Translations under genes and position numbers: made by a program
Part shown: one piece after another, positions 2,774 through 9,970 of the stretch
Position numbering within the stretch: the stretch's first letter is position 1
How the letters are laid out: each line of letters opens with the position of its first letter
DNA from: Nitrospinota bacterium
Lineage (GTDB): Bacteria; 2-12-FULL-45-22; JACOWJ01
DNA length: 34,469 bases
Reading direction: 5' to 3'
NCBI GenBank assembly: GCA_016176845.1
Contig: JACOWJ010000011.1
Coordinates: 6,303 to 40,771 of the forward strand
Notes under the pieces: model-generated
What the model was told of the DNA's origin: nothing
What the model saw: only the letters and a program-made list of their open reading frames with translations
Database searches by the model: none

Positions 2774-5700
2774 ATGAAGAAGAGACTCTCCCTGAAGGTC
2801 CTCATTCTGTTAACCCTTTGTACCTTGAGCTTGCTTGCCTCGAACACCAGCTCTTCGGCAGCCAGTGTGCTCGACCAGCAACAGGCGGGTACGTCCAGCT
2901 CCTACACCGTTGCCAACGCGAACCAGATCGCGGCACAAACATTCAAGGCTGGTATCACCGGTAGCCTGGATCAGGTGTCGATCTTCGTGACGTTGATTCC
3001 GTCGTCCTCGAACAGCGATCCATTCTTATGCACGATGATGCCCATGGATCCATCCTGCCAGCCGGGTCCGGGCAGTATGATCGTCCAGATCCAGACGGTC
3101 GATGGAACCGGTACCCCAACGGGTACCATCCTCGGCAGCGGAACCGTGCTGGCGGGGAACTTCGCGCCCTGGAGCGGAAACTGGGTCGACGTTCCACTGA
3201 CGCAGCCAGCCTCGGTCTCGGCTGGAACCCCCTATGCGCTTGTCGTGACGTCGGAGCAAGGTGGTGGCTCGTATAACTGGAGCGAGGTTCCCGACGCCTA
3301 TTCGGGTGGAAATGCGATGGCCCGCCCCCAGTACGGGACATGGGTGCAGATGACCGCGTATGACTTCGCCTTCAAGACCTATGTCGCTTCCGCACAGGGC
3401 ACGGCGACGGTGCCGGGTGCGCCACAGAACTTGGTGGCCCAGGCCGGCGAGAACGGCACGCTGATCGTCACCTGGGCGCCGCCGAGCTCCGACGGGGGCA
3501 GTCCAATCACGGGCTACACTATCGTCCCGATGTATGGAAACTCTGGAAGCGATGTTCCGCCGGTCACCGTCGGCGCGAACGTCACGACCAAGACGCTGAA
3601 CGGCATCGTCAACGGTCAGCCGGTAATGAATCACGTGCTGGTCTATGCGACCAATGCCATCGGCGATGGTCCGGCAGCCGACTCCGCGGGACCGGACTGC
3701 CTCTCCGGAGAGAGTTGTACCTTCGTAACGCTCGGCTTCCAGCCCAACCTGCTGATCAACGGGGGCTTCTTGGATGGGACGAATGGTTGGGAGCTGTTCT
3801 GCCAGACGTGGGAGTCATCCGGCGGGTTTCTCTGGGACTTGTCTCACTGCGGCAATTTCTACACGACGTCCTCGGCGGGCCTCACGCTCGACGCGAGCGT
3901 AACGCCGTACGATGCACCGTACATTAGCGCGGACCAGACAGTTGCTGCCCCGGCGAGCTCGATTCTTCAGGGGACCGTAACGGTCCATAGCATGGCCACC
4001 TGCAACACGGACGGTGCCGTCTCGGTCGACGCGATCCTACTCGACGCCAACCAGAATTCCCTGGGAGAGATCCTGTTCTCCCACCATCCTTACACGACTG
4101 GCTGTACGCCGTTCAGCTACTCTAACTCGCCCACCTTTTATTGGCAAGACATGACCAGCTGGGTTCCCGGAACAGGGCCGCAGAACTTCACGATGGATAT
4201 CGGGTGGATCATCGAGCAGCACCTGCCGGGCGTGAATCCCGCACAGGTCGCGTTTATCCGGATACGATTGGTGAACTACGCCGACTTCACCCGTCCGATC
4301 GTGACCTTCGGCAACCTAAGCCTCATCACGCCTATCGTCAACCATCCCCCTGTGGCCAATGCCCAGACGGTACCCTCCTTCAACGAGGACACCTCCGTAG
4401 CTATCACGCTGACCGGAAGCGATCCGGACGGCGATCCCCTGACCTTCACGGTGGTTACTCCGCCCGCCCAGGGGACCCTGACAGGGAAGGCCCCCAACCT
4501 CACCTACACCCCGGCGGAAAACTATAATGGCTCCGACTCCTTCACCTTCAAGGTGAACGACGGGACAGTCGATAGCGATACCGCCACCGTCTCCCTCAAG
4601 ATCACGCCGGTCAACGATGCCCCAATCCTCTCCATTCAGAATCAGAGCGTTGATGAGGGACAGCCGCTGAAGTTTACCGTTAGTGCCATCGATCCCGAGG
4701 GGGATTTGCTAACCTACTCGGCCAGCAACTTGCCCGGCGGGGCGACCCTCAACCTGACCACCGGGGAATTCAGCTGGAAGCCCGGCTATGATCAGGCGAA
4801 TATCTACACGGTGATCTTTGAGGTAAGCGACAATGCTACCCCTCCCATGAAGGCTTCACAGGAGATTACCATCACGGTCAACAACGTCAATGGTGCCCCT
4901 GTGGCCATTGCCCAGACGGTGACCACCCCGGAGGACACCTCCGTAGCCATCACGCTGACCGGAAGCGATCCGGAAAAAGACCCCCTGACCTTCGGCTTCA
5001 CACAGCCGACCCATGGGATCCTGACGGGGGAGGCCCCTAACTTGACTTATACCCCGGCGGAAAACTATAATGGCTCCGACTCATTCACCTTCAAGGTGAA
5101 CGACGGGACAGTCAATAGCAACACCGCCACCGTCTCCCTCAATATCACGCCGGTCAACGATGCCCCTATCCTCTCCATTCAGAATCAGAGCGTTGATGAG
5201 GGAGAGCTGCTGAATTTTACCGTCAGTGCCACCGATCCCGAGGGGGATTTGCTGACCTACTCGGCCAGCAACTTGCCCGGCGGGGCGACCCTCAACCTGA
5301 CCACCGGGGAATTCAGCTGGACGCCAGACTTTGGTAAGGCAGGCAGCTACTTTGTCAGCTTCGTGGTCAGCGATGGGAAGCTTACCACCAGTGTGACGAT
5401 CACCATCACGGTCTATAAGAAAGAGGCCGATCTCTCCCTTACCCTGACCGACATCCCTGACCCAGCGGGGGTGGGACAGGAGTTGACTTACACGGTGACA
5501 GTGACCAATAACGGGCCAAGCACGGCCACGGGCATGATCGTCACCGATACGCTGTCGGAAAAGGTGAGCTGGGACTCGACTACGTCCAGCCAGGGCTGGT
5601 GCAGTGGCACCAGCACCATTACCTGCAGCCTGGGTGATCTGGCCAGCCAAGGCAGCGCCACGGTGACGATCGTGGTGAGGCCGACGACCTCAGGCGAGAT

Positions 5701-6160
5701 TAAAAACACGGCCGAGGCGAAAGGAAAAGAATTCGATCCCACCACTCCCAATTGGAAAGAGATCACGACAACAGTCCTTCCGAAGCCAGCGGCCGACCTT
5801 TCGGTTACCCAGATCGGCCCCACGACGGTGGCAGTGGGGCAGAAGTTAATTTACACGGTGACGGTGACCAATAATGGGCCGAGCATGGCCACGGGCGTGA
5901 TCGTCACCAACAGCCTGCAAGGGGCGCCACAGGCTTCGTCCCCCTCAATTACGCCCAGCCAGGGCGACTGCGATGGGAGCGGAACCTGCTTCCTGGGCAA
6001 TCTGGCCAGCCAAGGCAGCGCCACGGTGACCATTGTAAGGACACCGATAATGCAAGGTGTGGTCGGCAACACAGCTCGAGTAAGGGGAGACGGGGGGGAC
6101 GAGATGGATCGCAATAGGGGTAATAACGTGAATACATTTACTACCAGAGTGTCCAAGTGA
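2774..6160 (+). CDS. Large secreted multidomain repeat protein (Fn3, cadherin/Ig-like repeats, DUF11)
   Basis: 1128 residues with a strong ribosome-binding site (GGAGGATACATT-ATG). Signal peptide: residues 1 to about 30 (KKRLSLKVLILLTLCTLSLL). Domains in order: an N-terminal beta-rich 'anchor'-type region (about 31-205); a fibronectin type III domain (about 213-308, PGAPQNLVAQ...GYTIVP); a jelly-roll carbohydrate-binding-like region opening with LINGGFLDGTNGWELF (about 324-515); two alternating pairs of cadherin-like domains (520-615, 616-705, 705-795, 796-885), each pair holding EDTSVAITLTGSDP, YTPAENYNGSDSFTFKVND and PVNDAPILSIQNQSVDEG; then two DUF11 domains (about 886-1003 and 1006-1128, ADLS...YTVTVTNNGPS). 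It is extracellular, probably adhesive or structural. The cadherin pairs repeat at the DNA level with a 543-549 nt period. No C-terminal anchor or sorting signal is visible, and a further DUF11 fragment lies after the stop, so the present C-terminus may be truncated. Confidence 0.88.
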   Translation: MKKRLSLKVLILLTLCTLSLLASNTSSSAASVLDQQQAGTSSSYTVANANQIAAQTFKAGITGSLDQVSIFVTLIPSSSNSDPFLCTMMPMDPSCQPGPGSMIVQIQTVDGTGTPTGTILGSGTVLAGNFAPWSGNWVDVPLTQPASVSAGTPYALVVTSEQGGGSYNWSEVPDAYSGGNAMARPQYGTWVQMTAYDFAFKTYVASAQGTATVPGAPQNLVAQAGENGTLIVTWAPPSSDGGSPITGYTIVPMYGNSGSDVPPVTVGANVTTKTLNGIVNGQPVMNHVLVYATNAIGDGPAADSAGPDCLSGESCTFVTLGFQPNLLINGGFLDGTNGWELFCQTWESSGGFLWDLSHCGNFYTTSSAGLTLDASVTPYDAPYISADQTVAAPASSILQGTVTVHSMATCNTDGAVSVDAILLDANQNSLGEILFSHHPYTTGCTPFSYSNSPTFYWQDMTSWVPGTGPQNFTMDIGWIIEQHLPGVNPAQVAFIRIRLVNYADFTRPIVTFGNLSLITPIVNHPPVANAQTVPSFNEDTSVAITLTGSDPDGDPLTFTVVTPPAQGTLTGKAPNLTYTPAENYNGSDSFTFKVNDGTVDSDTATVSLKITPVNDAPILSIQNQSVDEGQPLKFTVSAIDPEGDLLTYSASNLPGGATLNLTTGEFSWKPGYDQANIYTVIFEVSDNATPPMKASQEITITVNNVNGAPVAIAQTVTTPEDTSVAITLTGSDPEKDPLTFGFTQPTHGILTGEAPNLTYTPAENYNGSDSFTFKVNDGTVNSNTATVSLNITPVNDAPILSIQNQSVDEGELLNFTVSATDPEGDLLTYSASNLPGGATLNLTTGEFSWTPDFGKAGSYFVSFVVSDGKLTTSVTITITVYKKEADLSLTLTDIPDPAGVGQELTYTVTVTNNGPSTATGMIVTDTLSEKVSWDSTTSSQGWCSGTSTITCSLGDLASQGSATVTIVVRPTTSGEIKNTAEAKGKEFDPTTPNWKEITTTVLPKPAADLSVTQIGPTTVAVGQKLIYTVTVTNNGPSMATGVIVTNSLQGAPQASSPSITPSQGDCDGSGTCFLGNLASQGSATVTIVRTPIMQGVVGNTARVRGDGGDEMDRNRGNNVNTFTTRVSK

Positions 6161-8072: not shown

Positions 8073-8678
8073 CTAGCTGCTTCGCTTAATCATCTCCTCG
8101 AAGAAGGAGAGGGTAGTGGGCTCAATCCAATTCCTCGGCCCGATCACCTTATGGACCACCACACCTTGTCGATCGATGATGAAACTCTCCGGCACTCCAG
8201 TGGTGGTATAGGCCTTTTTGATCTGCCCGCGGGGATCCAAGAGCGCCGGAAAAGACAGACCATACTTCTTCATGAATGGGGCTACCACCTGCTCCCCCAG
8301 CACATCAATGCTTACGGAGACCACCGCCAGGTCTCTATCCTGGAAACTCTCATGGAGCTTCTGGAGGGAGGGCATCTCCTCGATACAGGTGGGGCACCAG
8401 GTGGCCCAGATATTGAGCAGAACTACCCGGCCGCGCAGCGAGGAGAGCCTGACCTTCCTCCCCTCGAGATCGGGGAAAGAGAAATCGGGGGCGAGCTGTC
8501 CCATCTGGAGGCGGGGAATCTGCTTGGAATTCTTCAGATCGGCCGGCTTGAGGAGGAGATAGGAGAAAAAGCCCACCGCCAACAACAGCGGGGAAAGGAT
8601 CAGGACCCGCAGCAATACTTTCTCCGCCAGGGAGGACTCCGTCTCCTCCACCCTTTCTTTGACACCCTCAGGATTCAA
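8073..8678 (-). CDS. TlpA/ResA-like membrane-anchored thiol-disulfide oxidoreductase
   Basis: 201 residues. The N-terminal membrane anchor is residues 21-43 (VLLRVLILSPLLLAVGFFSY); the periplasmic thioredoxin fold follows with active site WCPTC (C95, C98) in LLNIWATWCPTCIEEMPSLQ and the cis-Pro loop TTGVPESFIID. Members of this group (ResA, CcmG, TlpA) reduce disulfides on the outer face of the membrane, for example in apocytochrome c. The start appears to be TTG at 8678, overlapping the CcmH stop by 11 nt, consistent with translational coupling. The genomic partner CcmH supports a role in cytochrome c or periplasmic thiol maintenance. Confidence 0.88.
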   Translation of the reverse strand: MNPEGVKERVEETESSLAEKVLLRVLILSPLLLAVGFFSYLLLKPADLKNSKQIPRLQMGQLAPDFSFPDLEGRKVRLSSLRGRVVLLNIWATWCPTCIEEMPSLQKLHESFQDRDLAVVSVSIDVLGEQVVAPFMKKYGLSFPALLDPRGQIKKAYTTTGVPESFIIDRQGVVVHKVIGPRNWIEPTTLSFFEEMIKRSS

Positions 8679-9171
8679 ATTCCTTTAGCTCCTTTTCTAG
8701 TCGCTCCCAATAAGGATCTTTCCGGGAATCAGGGTCCATCATGGCACTCTCCCCGATCCCATCTGCTCCTTCTCCCCCCTTACCCTTTCGGCGAGCCCAG
8801 ATCTTCAGCAGCAAGAGCAGGGCCAAGGCCCCATAGAGGAGGGCCAGGAAGGGCAGGGTCCAGGCGGCCAGATAGAAGCCGCTCTTGGGGGGGGAGGCCA
8901 GGATCGTCACTCCATAGACCTCCACCAGATAGTTGATGATCTGCTCCTTGGTCTGTCCCTGGGCGATCTTCTGTCGAATCAGCTCACGCAGCTGATCGGC
9001 CTCCCCACTGGTGCAATCGATGAGGAGCCGCCCGGGACAGGCCGGACTCATCACCTCTCTGGACACCTCTTGAGCGGTCAGGCCCTGTGCCAAAGATGGG
9101 CCTCCCAGTTCATAGAGGAATGCCAGGGCTATCGTGCCCAGCAGGATGGCTCGTATCGATCTGCAACTCAT
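8668..9171 (-). CDS. CcmH-like cytochrome c maturation protein
   Basis: 167 residues: signal or anchor sequence (residues 6-29), short CcmH domain, one transmembrane segment (about 105-127, FYLAAWTLPFLALLYGALAL) and a charged tail. The helical bundle matches PF03918: LTAQEVSREVMSP, DQLRELIRQKIAQGQTKEQIINYLVEVYG, ILASPPKSGF. The usual redox motif LRCxxC is replaced by C45-PGRLLID-C53, a C-x7-C pair also seen in my memory of divergent CcmH proteins. The family binds and reduces apocytochrome c haem-site cysteines with CcmF. No ccmF or haem exporter lies in the window, so the job here may be broader thiol relay. GAGGGGG precedes the ATG. Confidence 0.78.
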   Translation of the reverse strand: MSCRSIRAILLGTIALAFLYELGGPSLAQGLTAQEVSREVMSPACPGRLLIDCTSGEADQLRELIRQKIAQGQTKEQIINYLVEVYGVTILASPPKSGFYLAAWTLPFLALLYGALALLLLLKIWARRKGKGGEGADGIGESAMMDPDSRKDPYWERLEKELKEFES

Positions 9172-9187: not shown

Positions 9188-9724
9188 CTAACTGCTGTAC
9201 CGCTTGGCCAGCTTCTCTTTGATCTCCTGGATGGAATAGCCTGCCTTCGTATAAGCGGACGCTGCCAGCGCCTCGTTCATACAGACGTCTCACCCCGCAG
9301 CGTGGTTGTCCACGTAACAGGTCAGCAGGCTCTTGTGGCCAAAGGTCTCCTGACACTGGCAATAGCAGTAAAGCTGGTCCAGCACCTGGGGAATCTCCTG
9401 GGCCACCTGGTAAGCCTGGGCGATCTTTCCGGCAAAATGAGTGGGGCTCAGGGTGGGACGCGTCTCCTTCAATTTCGGTCCACTCTGGGCCGCGTTATCC
9501 GTCGCAGTCGCCACTTGGACGCCCTGGGTCCCTCGAACCCCAGAGGAGGCCTTGTGGGTGGACCGAGCGAACAGATAACTCCCTCCCAATCCCAAAACAA
9601 CCAGGGCGGCCACGACGATCGGGAAATATTTCATCCCCCCCGGTCCCTTCTCTTCTTGCCTGCTGGCCTCGGAACGCCGGGGGCCTTTTGAGGGAGTCCC
9701 CTTACCTTTGTTTCCTTCAGCCAT
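9188..9724 (-). CDS. PCYCGC-motif family protein, probable selenoprotein (in-frame UGA at 9290-9292)
   Basis: Read with UGA as selenocysteine the protein has 178 residues: a basic N-terminus, one membrane anchor (about 31-52, MKYFPIVVAALVVLGLGGSY), a linker, then the PCYCGC-type domain (PF13798). Motif residues: C120, C122 and C124 in YCYCQCQETFGHKS, H130, C136, H141, then U145-D-V-C148. Known family members (for example Bacillus) have the pattern HxxxCxxC at this spot, so U145 replaces the first Cys of a CxxC pair. After the UGA the frame stays open with matching family sequence (CMNEALAASAYTKAGYS, IQEIKEKLAKRYSS) to TAG 9188-9190, as expected for readthrough rather than a dead stop. A SECIS-like hairpin starts 7 nt after the UGA. 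Strong SD (AGGAGGG). It follows the HMA gene by 27 nt and precedes ccmH-like by 16 nt. Function of the family is unknown; a thiol/selenol redox or metal-handling role is inferred. Confidence 0.85.
9249..9282 (-). promoter_or_regulatory. SECIS-like hairpin for selenocysteine insertion
   Basis: On the transcript, starting 7 nt after the UGA: GUAUGA pairs with UUAUAC (one G-U), then a 1x1 A/C mismatch, CG/CG, one bulged A, and GGCGCU/AGCGUC (one G-U) closing a GGC triloop; 34 nt in all. The upper stem begins 17 nt after the UGA. Position, length and a G-rich apical loop agree with bacterial SECIS elements bound by SelB. It lies inside the coding sequence, as bacterial SECIS must. Confidence 0.72.
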
Positions 9725-9751: not shown

Positions 9752-9970
9752 TCATGCCTCGTAACCCAATTCGGTGATCCGACTCTTGATCTGATCCAGC
9801 GATACCCTTCCGGGATCGAACTTTACCTCGGCCTGCTTCTTTTCCAAATCCACGACGATCTGAATGACCCCCTCCAGCAGGCGCAGCTCCTGTTCGATCG
9901 TCTTGCGGCAGTGGTCACATCCCATTCCTTCGATTCCGATGATCGAGGTCTCCCCTCGGCCTATCGTCAT
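9752..9970 (-). CDS. Heavy-metal-associated (HMA) domain protein, CopZ/MerP-like
   Basis: 72 residues, one HMA ferredoxin-like fold: metal site GMGCDHC (C18, C21), helix CRKTIEQELRLLEGV, strands IQIVVDLEKKQAEVKFD and the helix SLDQIKSRITELGYEA. Such proteins are small cytosolic carriers of Cu(I) or other soft metals. The start ATG has GGGGG 8 nt upstream and a good promoter about 75 bp up. As first gene of the operon ahead of a membrane selenol/thiol protein, CcmH-like and TlpA-like proteins, it suggests metal delivery or metal-stress defence tied to extracytoplasmic cysteines; the metal cannot be told from the sequence. Confidence 0.88.
   Translation of the reverse strand: MTIGRGETSIIGIEGMGCDHCRKTIEQELRLLEGVIQIVVDLEKKQAEVKFDPGRVSLDQIKSRITELGYEA

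Follow-up and report, generated by a model that had tools for sequence, protein, structure and literature searches.

Organization of the locus

The window analysed here is a stretch of 34,469 nucleotides from a Nitrospinota bacterium whose genome assembly is 68 % complete. It contains four closely spaced genes on the minus strand, the second of which (9188–9724) encodes a member of the CYCXC (OS_HP4) family. Its upstream neighbour (9752–9970) encodes a CopZ-like heavy-metal-associated (HMA) domain protein with the metal motif GMGCDHC, which also resembles MerP/CopZ models. Downstream lie genes for a CcmH/NrfF-type cytochrome c biogenesis protein (8668–9171) and, overlapping it, for a ResA/TlpA-type thiol-disulfide oxidoreductase with a WATWCPTC motif (8073–8678), all three neighbours being assigned from profile matches. 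Classical CcmH proteins carry the active-site motif LRCxxC; since CPGRLLIDC stands in its place here, the 8668–9171 product is likely to be a variant CcmH type.

Read from 9724 to 9188, the CYCXC frame specifies 144 residues, a TGA at residue 145 (9292–9290), a further 33 family-like residues (DVCMNEALAASAYTKAGYSIQEIKEKLAKRYSS) and a TAG stop (9190–9188). Under the standard code the ORF terminates at the TGA after 144 residues. With this codon, the only internal TGA in the frame, read as selenocysteine (Sec), the product is a protein of 178 residues in which U145 lies in the context HAAG-U-DVC (HxxxUxxC) and forms a UxxC pair, U145-D-V-C148, while the CYCxC motif is present as YCYCQC at residues 119–124. 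The first-pass annotation, made from the raw sequence, had described the in-frame TGA and the family-like continuation in just these terms, and translation bears it out. It had also warned that a standard gene caller would truncate the protein; a caller ignorant of Sec would indeed do so, but a pipeline equipped with the NCBIfam model NF041379 has a family name by which to recognize the gene.

The AlphaFold2 model consists of a membrane-length helix (residues 34–54), a linker of low confidence and a single, confidently predicted all-helical domain, with pLDDT values of about 90–98 over residues 91–178; the conserved domain occupies residues 85–178. The thioredoxin fold is absent, as the model has no strands and no Pfam thioredoxin match was obtained. 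A sequence search of the PDB returned no similar solved structure, and a fold search with the model gave no significant match (best E 1.5).

Family assignment

The protein matches NF041379, named 'CYCXC family (seleno)protein' (OS_HP4), with 124.8 bits against a cut-off of 90, covering profile positions 1–89 of 90, and a genomic search with the same model scored the window gene at 122.5 bits. The Pfam family PF13798 (PCYCGC) is matched at residues 97–177 with 44.9 bits, above the gathering score of 25, and this match spans the TGA. Two reviews, one of 2022 (PMC9312934) and one of 2026 (PMC13188914), tabulate OS_HP4 among selenoproteins with a UxxC motif; the later one also maps it to PF13798 and credits it to Zhang & Gladyshev (2007), whose work dealt with the selenoproteome of the symbiont of Olavius algarvensis. 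The selenoprotein family has thus been catalogued since 2007 and is not new at the family level. The first-pass proposal of a 'new selenoprotein in the PCYCGC-motif family' therefore stands as regards the selenoprotein, which is supported by the machinery, the Cys/TGA pairs and a hairpin confined to TGA forms, and as regards PF13798, but the word 'new' fails, because the family is already on record as NF041379/OS_HP4 and the protein scores above the cut-off of that model.

Selenocysteine machinery

The components of Sec insertion, which the first-pass annotation had proposed to seek in the same genome, were all found: tRNA-Sec (selC) at 70.4 bits with the anticodon TCA, selB at 377.6 bits, selA at 608.5 bits and selD at 381.1 bits. 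The selD gene of this genome (L034, G000:C23:19348-20271) has an in-frame TGA of its own, which presumably represents the known Sec form of SelD. Across the genomes compared, selA is present in 14 of 16 with a TGA form versus 6 of 11 others, which have Cys forms, a difference to be read as a trend only. The two TGA-form genomes in which selA was not found are G032 (86 % complete) and G074 (97 % complete), the latter having a tRNA-Sec at 77.6 bits.

Sec and Cys forms of the family

The family was found in 27 of 386 related genomes, in which 17 matches contain a single in-frame TGA and 12 contain none; two more matches, weak or broken, contain other stops and stand outside these sets. Among the 26 genes in which the motif could be placed, a single column holds TGA in 14 versus TGC or TGT in 12, so that the position of U145 is occupied by Cys in orthologues, a check that had likewise been suggested at the outset. 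Further Cys forms at the same column came from the scan of named genomes, for which a search of the contigs with the single protein returned no relative and a narrower alignment-based scan gave 22, some identical to matches in the related genomes; the phylum-restricted search covered two genomes. The 14 TGA genes are spread over many bacterial families, and their C-terminal domain is conserved beyond the TGA. Ten positions are invariant in 28 rows, in Sec and Cys forms alike (Y105, A108, C120, C122, C124, H130, C136, H141, C/U145 and C148), and include six Cys/Sec and two His.

In a tree of 42 rows, in which most deep branches are weakly supported, Sec and Cys forms are interspersed and six changes between them are needed (bootstrap 4–6). 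Two genomes, G138 and G074, have two clear copies each, and the pair in G074 comprises one TGA and one TGC gene, which makes it a natural pair for comparing the two forms. The Cys copy of this pair lies beside an HMA/YHS protein and the Sec copy beside SCO1/SenC (L071, G074:C45 and L078, G074:C46). In another genome (L068, G171:C30) a tRNA-Sec gene (67.5 bits, ~5109–5199) is located about 90 bases upstream of a Cys-form CYCXC gene (~5285–5770), an adjacency that may be due to chance or may be a trace of linkage.

A SECIS-like hairpin downstream of the UGA

Folding of the segment 9292–9240 yields a hairpin (−17.9 kcal/mol) that begins a few bases past the UGA and is capped by a GGC triloop, in agreement, within a base or two, with the first-pass annotation. 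The SECIS-like element occupies 9248–9283 on the minus strand; in alignment columns counted from the T of the TGA as 1, its core stem pairs columns 21–26 with 30–35 and its loop G is column 27. By itself the hairpin is only mildly more stable than dinucleotide shuffles (z −1.7), 5.6 % of synonymous recodings are equally or more stable, and the Rfam search gave no hit. As the hairpin is only marginal alone, the SECIS claim rests on comparison.

In the TGA rows 71.4 % of cells are paired versus 36.4 % in the Cys rows. The covariation score of the TGA rows exceeds all 500 shuffles, with a control slid by two positions scoring nearly as high (0.275 vs 0.306), whereas the Cys rows display no excess. 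Each of the 13 distinct TGA sequences retains the bases C25, G27 and G31, but only 2 of 28 Cys sequences do so (Fisher 6e-9), and stem length also differs between the two forms (Mann–Whitney p 4e-6). In three TGA rows, G124 (L022), G261 (L042) and G215 (L053), the stem is out of register and the loop G falls at the same codon position. Judged from these alignments, conservation of the putative SECIS hairpin is confined to the TGA forms. According to established knowledge of bacterial Sec insertion, SelB carrying Sec-tRNA-Sec would bind the loop of this hairpin, and Sec would be inserted instead of termination.

Recoding or termination

The window gene is accordingly assigned, with a probability of about 0.93, to the known CYCXC (OS_HP4) selenoprotein family within PF13798, its UGA being read as Sec. 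The opposing view, that the TGA is a true stop, a sequencing or assembly error or the mark of a decaying pseudogene, and that the 33 downstream codons are a relic, draws on the 144-residue ORF that ends there under the standard code and on the weakness of the hairpin by itself. Against it stand the 14 genes from many bacterial families with a single TGA at the same column and a conserved C-terminal domain after it, the Sec machinery in the genome and the SECIS-specific conservation. An error at 9290–9292 is, on the sequence comparison, very unlikely, because unrelated genomes have the same TGA, and the stop-codon or pseudogene explanation as a whole, highly improbable in our estimate, was dismissed in view of the Cys/TGA pairs and the presence of the Sec machinery. 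Reading of the raw sequence had thus picked up a genuine recoded codon together with a SECIS-type hairpin.

Gene neighbourhood and possible function

Several homologues have neighbours related to copper handling or cytochrome assembly. In G124 and G355 they are P-type ATPases of the copper type that contain HMA domains, in G074 HMA and YHS domains, with SCO1/SenC at the second copy of that genome, in G171 ResB, and in G098 a cytochrome c assembly protein of the CcsA type. A TlpA-like protein accompanied by cytochrome b is encoded near the homologue of G006, Rieske/cytochrome b near that of G033, cytochrome c near that of G032 and an outer membrane efflux protein near that of G064. Elsewhere the neighbours are unrelated, such as MobA/MobB in G215 and sugar epimerases in G049 and G224, and the enrichment of copper and cytochrome c genes is an impression. 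These recurring neighbours provide a testable idea of the role of the OS_HP4 family.

In the proposed mechanism, the single N-terminal membrane helix would anchor the product, and its extracytoplasmic domain, with the pattern C-Y-C-x-C ... H ... C ... H-x3-U-x2-C, would form a redox-active or soft-metal (copper) site; such a Cys/Sec/His-rich array would, as a sequence pattern, suit either metal binding or redox chemistry. The protein would then aid copper delivery or keep thiols reduced during the assembly of cytochrome c and copper oxidases, its presumed partners being the adjoining CopZ-like, CcmH-like and ResA/TlpA-like proteins. Anatomy and neighbourhood together suggest, at odds that we put slightly short of even, an extracytoplasmic protein that assists the handling of copper and the assembly of cytochromes, acting on a soft metal, probably copper, or in thiol redox. 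The more specific proposal of a membrane-anchored copper/thiol chaperone that depends on selenium, serves the assembly of cytochrome c and oxidases and is encoded with CopZ-, CcmH- and ResA-like partners is speculative and, taken in full, rather unlikely. If true, it would give the OS_HP4 selenoprotein family its first function and would place Sec in a helical Cys/His site instead of a thioredoxin fold.

Two other functions, both of which accept Sec insertion, have to be set against the helper role. The UxxC spacing and the ResA/TlpA, CcmH and SCO1-type thiol-redox neighbours would fit a thiol-redox enzyme or electron donor that uses the UxxC pair as a redox couple and carries no metal; this is possible but somewhat doubtful, as the invariant set of six Cys/Sec and two His resembles metal ligands more than it does a mere redox couple, the CopZ/HMA and copper P-type ATPase neighbours point to metal, and the all-helical model lacks the thioredoxin fold. 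Conversely, the domain could bind a metal cluster or scavenge toxic soft metals (Hg, Ag) in place of delivering respiratory copper. The Cys/His-rich array, the HMA proteins and P-type ATPases nearby in several genomes and the likeness of the window HMA protein to MerP/CopZ models would fit such a function, which we nonetheless consider improbable, given that no mer genes were seen among the neighbours examined and that genes for cytochrome b, cytochrome c, ResB and CcsA-type proteins are encountered repeatedly.

Comparison with known systems

A weak structural parallel, the N-terminal domain of CcmH (PDB 2kw0; TM 0.54 on the target), is like the CYCXC domain a small helical bundle whose gene lies close to others for cytochrome c maturation, but its E value of 3.0 is not significant and the window protein lacks LRCxxC; homology is not claimed. 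The PF13798 family, which includes Bacillales lipoproteins with a PCYCGC motif (PMC13068155), has in common with the window protein the CxCxC motif, further conserved Cys and attachment to the membrane outside the cytoplasm, while the window protein differs in having YCYCQC instead of PCYCGC, an N-terminal membrane helix and Sec in place of Cys at the C-terminal pair. In the comparison with NF041379/OS_HP4 the score lies over the curated cut-off, Sec occupies the UxxC position and Cys-containing orthologues exist; nothing distinguishes the window protein except a new host lineage, which is what is added to this catalogued family.
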